Shown: piece by piece, positions 9 through 6,156 of the stretch
Numbering within the stretch: the first letter of the stretch is position 1
How the letters are laid out: each line of letters opens with the position of its first letter
Position numbers and translations under genes: made by a program
Notes under the pieces: model-generated
The model's input: only the letters and a program-made list of their open reading frames with translations
Databases searched by the model: none
What the model was told of the DNA's origin: nothing
Assembly: GCA_025210295.1 (NCBI GenBank)
Contig: JAOASC010000046.1
Coordinates: 248,001-312,000, forward strand
Length of the DNA stretch: 64,000 nucleotides
Source of the DNA: Flavobacteriales bacterium
Lineage (GTDB): Bacteria; Bacteroidota; Bacteroidia; Flavobacteriales_D; Parvicellaceae
Reading direction: 5' to 3'

Positions 9-1373
9 TTACCCAAACAATGATCTCAACACATCTTCTATTTTATTGACCATTACGAGTTCTATCTTGTAGTTTTGTTGTAATAACCCTTTATTGTGTT
101 TGGAAATAAATATGCGTTCATACCCTAATTTCTCAGCTTCAGAAATGCGCTGTTCGATTCTTGGTACAGGCCTAATTTCTCCAGACAATCCTACCTCTGC
201 AGCAAAACAAGTTTTTGAATCAATACTTAAATCTACGTTTGAAGACAATATTGCACAAACTACTGCTAAATCAATAGAGGGGTCATCGACTTTTATCCCT
301 CCTGTTATATTTAAGAAAACATCTTTTTGACCTATTCTAAACCCGCATTTTTTCTCTAATACAGCCAACAGCATATTCAGTCTTCTTAAATCAAAACCTG
401 TTGCTGAACGTTGAGGAGTACCATAAGCAGCTGTACTTGCCAAAGCCTGTATCTCAACAAGTAATGGACGTGTTCCCTCCATAGTAACCGCCACACTAAC
501 TCCACTCAGTTCACCATTTTGATTACTAATTAATATTGCTGAAGGGTTATCTACCTCTTTTAACCCTTTGCTCGTCATTTCATAAATCCCCAACTCATTG
601 GTACTTCCAAAACGATTTTTAATACTTCTCAACAAACGATATAAATGATTTCGGTCTCCCTCAAATTGAAGCACCGTATCCACCATATGTTCAAGAACCT
701 TTGGACCTGCAATTGCTCCATCTTTAGTGATGTGACCAATTAAAATAATTGGTACACCTGTTTCTTTGGCATAACGCATCATTTCGGCTGTACATTCTCT
801 TACTTGAGAAATACTTCCTGGACTAGATTCTATAGCTGGCGTTTGTAAAGTCTGAATGGAATCTATGATAATTAAATTAGGAGCTAAATTACGTGCGTGT
901 TGAAAGATATTTTGTGTATTGGTTTCGGTTAACAAAAAACAATTCGCATCCTGATGATCTATTCGATCTGCACGCATTTTTATCTGCTCTTCACTTTCCT
1001 CACCAGAAACATACAATACTTTAAGCTGACTATTCAAAGCCAAGTCAAGCAACAATGTAGACTTACCTATACCGGGCTCACCACCTATCAACGTAAGAGA
1101 CCCTACCACAATGCCACCACCTTAGACTCTATTAAACTCATCATTAGACAATTTATAACGCCTATTCTCTAATGGTGTAATTTCGCTAATATGGTGGGGT
1201 TTCGTATTTTTTTTAAAGGAATCTCCATGTAATATTTTATCCTTTTTATTTTCTTTTTGGACAACTTCCTCTACAAACGTATTCCATTCATTACATCCCG
1301 GACATTTCCCTAACCACTTTGCTGATTCTGTTCCACAGTTTTGACAAAAAAATGCTGATTTTACTTTAGCCAT
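9..1373 (-). pseudogene. radA: radA, DNA repair protein RadA, interrupted by an in-frame TAA
   Basis: RadA is a RecA-like ATPase that promotes branch migration in recombinational repair. Reading the minus strand from the ATG at 1373, the first 83 codons hold the N-terminal zinc finger (CQNCG then CPGCN) and end at NRV followed by TAA (1122-1124). The same frame then continues with GGGIVVGSLTLIGG, the Walker A motif GGEPGIGKST, the RadA-specific KNRFGS motif and a Lon-like C-terminal domain, stopping at 9-11. The summed length (about 454 codons) matches normal RadA. In the family the residue at the stop is a leucine, so one T-to-A change of TTA explains it. A GTG at 1107-1109 could restart translation, giving a protein without the zinc finger. 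It is a real nonsense mutation, a sequencing error or a readthrough case; the frame itself is otherwise intact. Confidence 0.88.
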
Positions 1374-1677: not shown

Positions 1678-2637
1678 ATGAAAAAATTACTCTTTGTTGA
1701 CGATGATCACTCAACTCGAATTCTTTTTCAAAAAGCTTTTAGAGACCAATACGATGTACTCCTTGCAAAATCGGCAAAAAAGGCATTGAAGATTCTCAAG
1801 AAAGAAGAAATACCTGTTATTATTTCGGATCAAGTAATGCCCAAACAAACTGGACTAGAATTATTTGAGTTATTAGCACATCGCACCCCATTGTCTCCAT
1901 CGATAAAAATTTTAATCACAGGATGTAAGGACATCGACATCGCCATTCACGCTATTAATCAAGGATACGTTTATAAGTACATCAAAAAACCTTTTGAAAT
2001 TGAAGAGTTAGACGAAGTACTGAAACATGCGTATCAACTCTATTCCTCTAGGGTAAAAAGAAAGGTTTTACAACAAGCTATTGATCAAGAGCGTGAAACA
2101 ACTCATGAACAATATGCTCGTGAACTACATGAAGATGTTGCACAAAATATTGCGGGGGTGAATTTTAATTTAAGCCTACCTCAACACCATACACCTCCAG
2201 AAAAACCAAGTAAAATCCTTCAGCAAACCATCCAATCGATCAGAAATTTAAGTTATGTTATTTCTCCTCGTTTACATGAATATGGCAACCTACAATCTGC
2301 AATTGAATTATTGATAGCAGGAAAAAAAAGGATAACGATAAACTCAAGTATTCAAGCAGATTTAAAATTAGACAAAAAACTAGAACTACATCTATATAGG
2401 TTAATACAATACTTCATTAAATACTATGAGGCCCAAAACATCACAAACATCACTTTCTCTTTATCATTAAACAAGAAGCTAAAGACACAATTAGTGTTTT
2501 ATAGCGATCAACAATCAGAATATCATAGTGATTTTTTAGAAACTATAAGCATAATGATTGAGCCTTATTACGGTCAATTAATTCAACGGGTTATTAATAA
2601 ACAATCTTCCAACTGCATCATTTACGGGCTCTATTAA
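1678..2637 (+). CDS. response regulator with decayed histidine-kinase-like C-terminus
   Basis: 319 residues. The N-terminal receiver domain (about 1-120) has the acidic pocket VDDD at 7-10, phospho-acceptor Asp51 in ISDQVMP, and the conserved lysine in YIKKPF. From about 135 the protein looks like a NarL-family kinase transmitter: ARELHEDVAQNIAG with His151 fits the HisKA_3 phospho-acceptor box. The following ATPase-like part is degenerate: a segment resembling the N-box helix lacks the Asn, and no DxG or GxG boxes are visible. It therefore probably cannot bind ATP and may act as a phosphotransfer or dimerisation module. There is no DNA-binding domain. The stop is one base before the start of the hybrid kinase, which strongly suggests an operon and a shared pathway. 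The receiver assignment is secure; the role of the tail is inferred. Confidence 0.85.
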   Translation: MKKLLFVDDDHSTRILFQKAFRDQYDVLLAKSAKKALKILKKEEIPVIISDQVMPKQTGLELFELLAHRTPLSPSIKILITGCKDIDIAIHAINQGYVYKYIKKPFEIEELDEVLKHAYQLYSSRVKRKVLQQAIDQERETTHEQYARELHEDVAQNIAGVNFNLSLPQHHTPPEKPSKILQQTIQSIRNLSYVISPRLHEYGNLQSAIELLIAGKKRITINSSIQADLKLDKKLELHLYRLIQYFIKYYEAQNITNITFSLSLNKKLKTQLVFYSDQQSEYHSDFLETISIMIEPYYGQLIQRVINKQSSNCIIYGLY

Positions 2638-2638
2638 G

Positions 2639-4996
2639 ATGAACAAACTTTACTTACTCATACTCAGCATAAGTATTTGCAATATGTTTTTCGCTAAAAA
2701 TAAAGCATTAATTATTGAAAAACAGCCAAGAAGCTATCCTGTCCGAGGCTTTATTGAAATACTAGAAGACAAAAACAACGAGTACTCTATCCATGATATT
2801 ATAAAAAAAGACTGTTTATTCGTTCGTTCCAATAAATTAAACATGGGATTTACGACCTCCGCCTATTGGTATAAACTTTCCATTACAAACCCTACTCACG
2901 TAACACAATCTTTGATCTTAAGTATCATGTATCCTGACCTTAATGAGCTAGATTTCTATGAGACATCCAACCAATGTATTCTTAGGTCTATCCAAACAGG
3001 TGAATCTAGGCCGTTTAACAACAGGATATTGATACATCGTAACTACCTCTTCCCCATAGATTTTCTCCCTAAAAGTTCGCTCACATTCTATATCAAAGCA
3101 TATAACAATGGGGATTCTGTTAATTTACCCCTTAAGCTATCGGAACAAGCCACATTTTTTATAGAAGATCAACTGCAAACAACTATCAATTGGCTTTTTT
3201 ATGGCGTTTATTTGGCTGTTATATTACTCAGTCTTTTTTTGTTTATAATCAGTAAAAGAAAATTATATCTTGATTATTTTTTATATGCCTTTTTCTTCTC
3301 ATTATTCATCTTAAACTTAGACGGTTTTTCTCGTCAACTACTATGGCCTAACTACCCTTGGTGGTCCAACCACTCTACTGTCCTTTTTGCTAGTCTAGGC
3401 AACCTATTTTTATTATCACTTACGAAACGTTTTTTAATTTTCAAAAGCCTTGAAAAGCTTCGAGCATCGCATCGCATCATTTACCTGTTTCAAATACTAT
3501 GCTTCATAGCAAGCATCCTATCCCTATTTAATCAAGAATTCTTACTTATAAGTATCTATTTATTAAATCTTTTTTACCCCTCAACAGTTATTCTTATCAT
3601 TATTCTATCCATTAAATCGATACAGCAAGGAAACGCTCTAGCCTATTACTTTTTAATTGGATTTTCATTATTTTTTATTTGCATTGTGTTATTTCAACTG
3701 TCAGACACAGGGATCATTCAATCTTCATTTTTAAATTCGAGTAGCATATTTAGAATAGGTTTAATCAGCGAAGGCATCTGTTTAACCCTTGCTGCTATTG
3801 ATCAATATCGTAAAGAAATTGAAAAAGTTACCCATACCTTAAGGATACAAAACCAAGCATTGACAATTGCTCAAAACCAAGCAGAAAATGCTAATCGATT
3901 AAAAGGCGTTTTTTTATCCAACATGTCACACGAAATAAGATCTCCTTTACATATCATTAATGGATATATCCAATTGTTTTTACAAGGAAAAATAGCAGAA
4001 ACTGATAAAGTCAACATTTTTCATTTAATAAAAAAAAATGCCAAAATATTACTACAACTCATCGATGACATTATCGACATCTCTAAAATTGAAGCGAATC
4101 AACTTCAATTAAATTTGAAGTTTTTTGATTTATCCGTCTTTTTTTCTGAGATCTATGAAGAGTTTAAAAATACAAAACAAACGGTTGTATTAAGTATCGC
4201 AATTCAAAAGTATGATCCTTTCGAATATTTTTTTTACACCGATCAACTTAGGTTAAAGCAAATTATTAGCAACCTCATCAACAATGCTTATAAATACACA
4301 GATAAAGGGGAAATAATTGTAGGATACACCCATCAAGACAACCAATTAACTTTCTTTGTAAAAGACACTGGGAAAGGCATACCTAACAACAAAATAGATC
4401 AAATTTTTGACCGATTTAACAAACTGGATCAATCTGAGGGGACTGGGATTGGACTTGCTATTTCCAAAGAATTAGTCATCCTCTTAAATGGTAAAATATG
4501 GGTTGAGTCCACTCCCAATCAGGGAACCTCTTTTTATTTTAACCTACCAATTAACTTCCCCCAAAAAGAAAAAGTTTGTATTCAACCCTCTAATCATCAA
4601 AACTTAAAGCATAATCTACCTTATAACTGGAAAGGAAAAACCATTTTAATAGCAGAGGATAAAGATGAAAGTTATTGGTTATTAAAACAACATTTAGAAG
4701 ATACCGAAGTCAACCTTATATGGGCAAAAAACGGCGTAGAAGCAGTTAATTTGTATTGCTCTTATGATAATATTGACTTGATATTAATGGACATTAACAT
4801 GCCGATTATGAATGGGTTTGAAGCATTAAAAGCCATTAGACAAGTTAACCCAGACGTCCCTGTATTTTCGCAAACTGCATACGGTTTAAATGACGAAATA
4901 GAAAAATGTAAAAACGCAGGATTCAATGAGTACATTCCGAAACCCATTGACCTGCAAACTATATCAAATACAATAAATAAATACTTAAAATTATGA
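2639..4996 (+). CDS. 7TMR-DISM hybrid sensor histidine kinase
   Basis: 785 residues. A short signal-like N-terminus is followed by an extracytoplasmic beta-rich 7TMR-DISM extracellular-type domain (about 25-170), about seven membrane helices (180-395), a coiled linker, a HisKA domain with His431 in FLSNMSHEIRS, and a HATPase domain with N-box NLINNAYKY, G1 DTGKGIP and G2 GTGIGLAI. A C-terminal receiver domain has Asp718 in LILMDINMP. All catalytic boxes are intact. 7TMR-DISM proteins are thought to sense small extracellular ligands. The gene lies one base after the response regulator gene, and its TGA overlaps the ATG of the next gene (ATGA), so the three are likely translationally coupled. 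Whether this kinase senses a product connected to the downstream AOS-family protein is an inference from position. Confidence 0.92.
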   Translation: MNKLYLLILSISICNMFFAKNKALIIEKQPRSYPVRGFIEILEDKNNEYSIHDIIKKDCLFVRSNKLNMGFTTSAYWYKLSITNPTHVTQSLILSIMYPDLNELDFYETSNQCILRSIQTGESRPFNNRILIHRNYLFPIDFLPKSSLTFYIKAYNNGDSVNLPLKLSEQATFFIEDQLQTTINWLFYGVYLAVILLSLFLFIISKRKLYLDYFLYAFFFSLFILNLDGFSRQLLWPNYPWWSNHSTVLFASLGNLFLLSLTKRFLIFKSLEKLRASHRIIYLFQILCFIASILSLFNQEFLLISIYLLNLFYPSTVILIIILSIKSIQQGNALAYYFLIGFSLFFICIVLFQLSDTGIIQSSFLNSSSIFRIGLISEGICLTLAAIDQYRKEIEKVTHTLRIQNQALTIAQNQAENANRLKGVFLSNMSHEIRSPLHIINGYIQLFLQGKIAETDKVNIFHLIKKNAKILLQLIDDIIDISKIEANQLQLNLKFFDLSVFFSEIYEEFKNTKQTVVLSIAIQKYDPFEYFFYTDQLRLKQIISNLINNAYKYTDKGEIIVGYTHQDNQLTFFVKDTGKGIPNNKIDQIFDRFNKLDQSEGTGIGLAISKELVILLNGKIWVESTPNQGTSFYFNLPINFPQKEKVCIQPSNHQNLKHNLPYNWKGKTILIAEDKDESYWLLKQHLEDTEVNLIWAKNGVEAVNLYCSYDNIDLILMDINMPIMNGFEALKAIRQVNPDVPVFSQTAYGLNDEIEKCKNAGFNEYIPKPIDLQTISNTINKYLKL

Positions 4997-6156
4997 AACG
5001 TAACGTACAAGAGTCAACTTTAAGAAACATAATGGATAACACCTACCAGTATGTTTATGACAAAAACCTCGGAAATGTAATTGAGGAAAATGGACGAGAA
5101 TTGATTATGATGGGATCAATTAATTACTTAGGCCTATCGAAGCATCCTAAAGTAATAGAAGCTGTTTTAAAGGATGTCCAAGAGAATGGAATAGTAGGTA
5201 CAGGAGCCCGATATTCTGATGGCTACACAAGTCATCACAAAGGGTTGGAAGATGATTTAAAAACATTTTTTAATCGTAAACATTGTTTAATTTTTAACTC
5301 AGGTTTTTTAGCAAATCTTGGAACTATTAGTTCTACTGGAAGAGGCGCTATCATCTTTTCAGACAAAGAGAATCACCCCAGTATACTTGATGGGATGCTA
5401 CTTGCTAGAGCCAATTCTGGAGCTCAATTTTATCGTTTTAGACACAATGACCCCAAACACTTTGAAGAGTTAGTAAAAAGAGCACCAGATTCACCTAATA
5501 AATGGTTAGTTTTAGTTGGTACTTTTGGTTCGAAAGGTGAACATATTAAATTAGCTCAATTTGTTGAAATTGCTAAAAAGTATAACATCAAAATATTTTT
5601 TGATGATGCACATTCTATTATTATTGACGGAGAAAACAAAAGGGGCTTATCAGAAAAAGAAAATGTATATAACGATATAGATATTTTAATGGGCTCTTTT
5701 CAAATGACTTTTGCAAACATTGGTGCTTTTATAGTAGGAAATGATGACTTAATCAAAAGCATGCAATATCATTCAAGACCTTATATGTACACCTACAATT
5801 TGCCCTCACAAAATGTAGTGGCAATTCGAACAATTTTTGAAATCATCAATTCAGATGAAGGAAAATACTTAATTCAGAAACTACACGAAAATGTAAATTA
5901 CATAAGAGAAGGTGTTCGTAAAATAGGACTTACACCTATATCTAAGGATTCTCAAGTTATTTGTTTTAAAGTAGAGAATGAAAAGTTAAAGTTTTTAGCC
6001 GATCAACTATACAAAGATGGTCTTTGGGTACAAAAATATCTTCCTAACGAAAATGGCTATTCTTCCATTAGATTAACCCCAATGGCTACACACACAAAAG
6101 AGCATTTAGATAAAACGCTTGCTATTCTTTCGAAATACAAAGCGCACATATCATAA
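4993..6156 (+). CDS. alpha-oxoamine synthase family protein lacking the PLP lysine
   Basis: 387 residues, full length for the AOS family (KBL, BioF, HemA, serine palmitoyltransferase, CqsA/LqsA), which condense an amino acid with an acyl-CoA. Conserved family landmarks are present: NYLGLSKHP, GTGARYSDG, SDKENHPSILDG with the PLP-stacking His, FFDDAHS with the PLP-contacting Asp and His, GENKRG, and a C-terminal SIRLTPMATHT. The Schiff-base lysine is not: the usual GT(F/L)xK motif reads GSFQM, placing Met238 where E. coli KBL has its lysine. No nearby lysine could substitute. This resembles the non-catalytic SPTLC1/LCB1 subunit of eukaryotic serine palmitoyltransferase. Its ATG overlaps the hybrid kinase stop. 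It may be a pseudoenzyme partner, a ligand sensor, or an enzyme with altered chemistry. Family call is sure; function is unknown. Confidence 0.88.
   Translation: MKRNVQESTLRNIMDNTYQYVYDKNLGNVIEENGRELIMMGSINYLGLSKHPKVIEAVLKDVQENGIVGTGARYSDGYTSHHKGLEDDLKTFFNRKHCLIFNSGFLANLGTISSTGRGAIIFSDKENHPSILDGMLLARANSGAQFYRFRHNDPKHFEELVKRAPDSPNKWLVLVGTFGSKGEHIKLAQFVEIAKKYNIKIFFDDAHSIIIDGENKRGLSEKENVYNDIDILMGSFQMTFANIGAFIVGNDDLIKSMQYHSRPYMYTYNLPSQNVVAIRTIFEIINSDEGKYLIQKLHENVNYIREGVRKIGLTPISKDSQVICFKVENEKLKFLADQLYKDGLWVQKYLPNENGYSSIRLTPMATHTKEHLDKTLAILSKYKAHIS

Follow-up and report, generated by a model that had tools for sequence, protein, structure and literature searches.

A lysine-less alpha-oxoamine synthase homologue encoded with a receiver protein and a hybrid histidine kinase in a Flavobacteriales bacterium

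Members of the alpha-oxoamine synthase (AOS) family form a Schiff base with PLP through a lysine that is thought to be both the base removing the alpha proton and the anchor of the cofactor (PMC3794620). We analysed a 64,000-nucleotide stretch of the genome of a Flavobacteriales bacterium (hereinafter the window, to which positions refer unless a contig is named) that codes for an AOS homologue, P0001, with methionine in the place of this lysine. What might such a protein do, and is its lysine really lost? The original prediction, made from the sequence of the window, had described the AOS gene; that account did not include the operon in which we find it to lie, along with genes for a receiver protein and a 7TM hybrid kinase.

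A three-gene operon and its neighborhood

The genes and their junction are as follows:

1678 to 2637, forward strand: receiver-domain protein of 319 aa (Response_reg, 61.8 bits), its C-terminal half weakly HisKA_3-like (19.7 bits, below the cut-off)
2639 to 4996, forward strand: hybrid histidine kinase of 785 aa with 7TMR-DISMED2, 7TMR-DISM_7TM, HisKA, HATPase_c and receiver domains (Pfam)
4993 to 4996, forward strand: ATGA overlap joining the AOS start codon and the kinase stop codon
4993 to 6156, forward strand: P0001, the lysine-less AOS-fold protein of 387 aa, recognized by its open reading frame and by profile and structure comparisons

The receiver gene comes first, the kinase follows after a gap of 1 bp past its stop codon, and the AOS gene overlaps the kinase by 4 bp. 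All three frames are unbroken, that of P0001 running through 387 codons without an internal stop or frameshift. The C-terminal half of the receiver protein resembles a degenerate NarX-type (HisKA_3) histidine kinase, and no full-length orthologue of this protein was found among 60 relatives. A scan for promoters and terminators performed no better than shuffles, and PADLOC returned no match.

An AOS gene adjoining a sensor histidine kinase is also a feature of CqsA/LqsA neighborhoods: at the CqsA/CqsS and LqsA/LqsS/LqsR quorum-sensing loci, a membrane histidine kinase and a receiver protein likewise accompany the AOS, the lqs cluster comprising an AOS, a sensor kinase and a receiver (PMC3376566). 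However, the lysine that P0001 lacks is present in CqsA (K236) and LqsA (K258; PMC3376566), the input domains of the kinase at our locus are of the 7TMR-DISM type, and P0001 resembles SPT, scoring 138.5 bits with the CqsA/LqsA model NF005526 against a cut-off of 428.

In six genus mates and two further genomes of the family, other genes occupy the examined flank of radA (very short in one of these genomes) and the operon is absent from it; the operon was therefore either gained locally or lost repeatedly. A paralogous pair of receiver and 7TMR-DISM kinase lies elsewhere in the same genome (contig C16, 450000-468000) without an AOS gene. Across the phylum, kinases with a similar sensor part were found at 25 places, one of them in this genome, with no AOS in the flanks examined.

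The radA gene itself (9-1373, reverse strand) is split by one in-frame TAA, with the stop at 1122-1124. Here the leucine of NRVLGGG has become a stop codon through a one-base A/T difference (TTA to TAA), while in six same-genus genomes radA is intact and codes for 454 aa. This stop could reflect a genuine nonsense mutation or an erroneous base in the sequence.

Met238 and the surrounding active site

P0001 scores 108 bits with the Pfam model PF00155 (cut-off 19.7), placing it in the AOS superfamily of fold type I, and it is devoid of the Schiff-base lysine on which AOS catalysis depends; on its sequence, it is an AOS homologue and not an AOS enzyme in the usual definition. Its top NCBIfam models are those for SPT and BioF, all far under their curated cut-offs, the SPT models NF047599 and NF047600 giving 240.9 bits against 500 and 217.3 against 640, respectively. 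The positions of interest are:

5374 to 5376, forward strand: His128 (SDKENHPS), the PLP-stacking histidine, kept (alignments; role from PMC10196870)
5602 to 5613, forward strand: Asp204 to His207 (DDAH), contacts to PLP N1 and O3', kept (alignments; roles from PMC10196870)
5692 to 5706, forward strand: GSFQM instead of GTFSK (phmmer and multiple alignments)
5704 to 5706, forward strand: ATG, Met238, at the Schiff-base lysine position (in-frame codon and alignments)
6070 to 6072, forward strand: Arg360 (SIRLT), the C-terminal arginine of the family, kept (alignments)

The motif sequence of P0001 is MGSFQMTFANIGAF. GSFQM is paired with GTFSK in phmmer pairwise alignments to solved SPTs and also in multiple alignments, and the column of Met238 holds lysine in 111 of 111 relatives aligned with MAFFT and, in a larger set, in 116 of 116. 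No substitute lysine lies within residues 235-253. Thus, the original prediction of a plain in-frame ATG where the Schiff-base lysine is expected, with the PLP-stacking histidine, the aspartate and histidine of DDAHS and the C-terminal arginine retained, is upheld by the alignments for each of these residues.

For the remainder of the pocket, we took residue correspondences between P0001 and SPT from alignments and the roles of the PLP-site residues from the structure paper on the Sphingobacterium multivorum enzyme (PMC10196870). The contacts to the PLP ring are kept (S. multivorum SPT/P0001): His138/H128 for stacking, Ala212/A206, Asp210/D204 to N1 and His213/H207 to O3'; R360 corresponds to Arg390 of S. 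paucimobilis SPT. The shared stacking histidine, DDAH and C-terminal arginine extend to S. wittichii SPT. In contrast, residues of the phosphate cup and on the substrate side are changed in P0001 (T235S, S237Q, S179G and S72A among them); on the phosphate side, Thr241 is replaced by Ser235 and Ser243 by Gln237, in addition to Lys244 by Met238. Further differences from bacterial SPT are the change of Ser185 to Gly179, a loop before the C-terminal arginine that is two residues shorter, a shorter N-terminal arm and scores that reach less than half of the NCBIfam cut-offs for SPT. Among the residues that reach in from the partner chain, marked by an asterisk, Ser81* has become Ala72, Ser273* Thr267 and Ala274* Tyr268. 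We did not count the loss of N43 as a catalytic one: S. wittichii SPT has tyrosine there and asparagine next to it, like Asn44 of P0001. One alignment shows an N-terminal deletion of 17 residues that shifts in another, and the claim is limited to the shorter arm.

Twenty-one columns of the alignment are invariant, that is, identical in all 116 other rows, and P0001 departs at five of them (N43I, G210I, G216K, T235S and K238M). Elsewhere, two other rows have one such loss each and the rest none, the exception being the BioF paralogue of this genome, which is equally distant, loses five of 26 columns and retains its lysine. The extent of change in P0001 is about what its distance predicts, the diagnostic part being the presence of the lysine among the losses. 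T235S, S237Q, S179G, A129P and G210I surround the lost lysine, and Met238 is therefore not an isolated departure.

This bears on the accuracy of the sequence. ATG is one base away from AAG, and Met238 taken by itself could come from a single substitution or a base-call error; moreover, radA in the same window has another one-base A/T oddity. Nevertheless, it seems to us improbable that P0001 is an active AOS altered by no more than an assembly point error or a mutation of the strain: S237Q and T235S in the same motif require more changes, and a codon-based scan, albeit a weak one, detected no clearly split gene besides radA in the 64 kb of the window.

The retained ring-binding and substrate residues also invite the idea of an active enzyme with an altered, lysine-free chemistry, which would either take up PLP adducts that arise in solution or dispense with PLP. 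In its favor, the lysine-free SPT K265A was crystallized with a PLP-myriocin aldimine (4bmk; PMC6148460), the myriocin adduct being in a decarboxylated form (PMC6148460). However, given the dual role ascribed to the lysine as alpha-proton base and PLP anchor (PMC3794620), and with no candidate replacement base identified in P0001, we consider such an activity very improbable. What the K265A structure does establish is that the fold can carry PLP adducts without the lysine, since it holds the PLP-myriocin aldimine.

Fold, kinship and distribution

An AlphaFold2 model of P0001, built on a 24-sequence alignment, has a mean pLDDT of 82.7 and a pTM of 0.81, with values below 50 only in residues 1-25, and P0001 is confidently predicted to take the full AOS fold. 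Structural matches (Foldseek, VIA-align) comprise SPT, KBL, ALAS and BioF; the best are SPT and KBL, followed by ALAS, with Z of 41-43 and bacterial SPT at the top (Z about 43). The closest solved sequences are likewise bacterial SPTs (phmmer, to 6e-48). A quick tree built from 46 AOS proteins puts P0001 with the SPT-type rows, without a clear sister and with the unsure placement of so long a branch, its terminal branch measuring 3.15 against a median of 0.17, about 18 times as long.

No P0001 orthologue was recovered from six genus mates or the other 38 genomes of the family, nor from wider samples of the order (399 genomes), the phylum (395) and the class (395); the samples overlap partly and altogether hold more than 1,000 distinct genomes. 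A peptide-pattern scan of 84,980 species, by a method that misses many relatives of moderate identity, also found no orthologue, its best matches being lysine-bearing SPTs of Acholeplasmataceae, about 35% identical. Overall, the best relatives are lysine-bearing SPTs with 30-37% identity, and no full-length relative clearly above 37% was present in the genomes, viral contigs, plasmids and phages searched. A viral DNA-pattern scan for DDAHS...GSFQM gave no match, and the full-length plasmid matches have the lysine and no adjoining kinase. The lysine-less P0001 is known from one genome only.

The original prediction had taken conservation outside the motif as a sign of selection. Such conservation falls short of demonstrating selection, given that no orthologue was found, that the terminal branch is some 18-fold longer than the median and that further residues of the pocket differ. 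The same single-genome occurrence and very long branch favor a recently inactivated AOS, perhaps a former synthase of a signal molecule paired with the kinase, in which a late change of lysine to methionine, a single base, marks early decay with no present function; the nearby radA, with its nonsense codon absent from genus mates, would be in keeping with this. Weighing against such decay are the 387 codons free of stops and frameshifts, the preserved start-stop overlap, the open upstream genes of the operon, the four catalytic residues that are kept, and a pocket altered at several linked positions and not at one. On balance, we deem it unlikely.

The known lysine-less precedent is SPT1/LCB1/SPTLC1, which shares with P0001 an AOS fold without the PLP lysine and works with LCB2; AOS are dimeric, and their active sites lie at the dimer interface (PMC6148460, PMC3794620). 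P0001 might by analogy be a non-catalytic subunit that pairs with KBL, a cysteate acyl-ACP transferase homologue or BioF and shapes or regulates the interface active site. The lysine-bearing AOS called for by such pairing, which the original prediction had suggested seeking, do occur: the genome codes for four, namely KBL, BioF and a pair of close homologues of solved cysteate acyl-ACP transferases, enzymes of sulfonolipid synthesis from the same superfamily as P0001, and one of the four is an additional copy that was not found in genus mates. Moreover, some of the residues that project into the active site of the partner are either retained or replaced conservatively (Gly71, Arg73, Thr267). 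Yet none of the lysine-bearing AOS is linked to the P0001 locus; their identity to P0001 is only 27-31% (27-30% for the two cysteate acyl-ACP transferase homologues), and the equivalents of Ser81* and Ala274* have become Ala72 and Tyr268.

The parallel with SPTLC1/LCB1 drawn by the original prediction holds for the absent lysine and fails beyond it: LCB1 is also without equivalents of His159, Asp231, His234 and Arg390 (PMC6148460), whereas P0001 keeps all four (H128, D204, H207 and R360). LCB1 is also well below bacterial SPT in sequence score (phmmer, 88-90 bits for its chains versus 167) and somewhat below it in fold (LCB1/SPTLC1 chains, Z 37-39 to the P0001 model). Because LCB1 lost the residues kept in P0001 and no partner gene is linked, we regard an LCB1-like role as less favored and doubtful.

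The extra cysteate acyl-ACP transferase homologue lies on contig C29 (as binned, 9.4 kb) at 2808-4055, adjoins a thioredoxin-reductase-like gene and is 62% identical to the homologue common to family members; no second homologue was found in genus mates.

A possible sensory role for P0001

Taken together, P0001 is probably catalytically dead and reused for binding or signaling. The original prediction had left a choice between regulatory pseudoenzyme, ligand-binding sensor and half of a heterodimer; an AOS-family pseudoenzyme is the best reading, and the operon favors signaling over the other options. We propose, at close to but short of an even chance, that P0001 is a non-catalytic SPT-type AOS-fold protein that acts with the co-made kinase and may still bind PLP or a PLP adduct without a covalent bond. 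The operon would co-produce it with the receiver protein and the 7TMR-DISM hybrid kinase. Lacking Lys238, it would form no internal aldimine and remove no alpha proton, and P0001 alone would therefore perform no Claisen condensation. With His128, Asp204, Ala206, His207 and Arg360 kept, it may be able to bind PLP, or an adduct of PLP with an amino acid or amine, in a non-covalent manner, and this bound state might be read by, or tune, the kinase. A narrower proposal, offered tentatively as possible rather than probable, is that a lysine-less AOS with its PLP-ring site kept is a dedicated ligand-binding part of a two-component operon, a pseudoenzyme counterpart of CqsA/CqsS.

Gene order is the one line of evidence suggesting a functional link between P0001 and the kinase. 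The occurrence in a single genome and the absence of AOS at the 25 places with similar kinases argue against our main reading and make the pairing putative as an old or functional one; the long branch would also fit relaxed constraint.

Lysine-less AOS have so far been described for the eukaryotic-type SPT1/LCB1, whose heterodimeric arrangement a review calls unique in the AOS family (PMC6148460), and we found no paper on a bacterial one among the open-licence papers searched. If the proposed reading is true, this bacterial case would be a simple test of a PLP enzyme turning into a sensor or regulator, and its locus would test whether AOS-plus-kinase loci can work without synthesis of a signal molecule.
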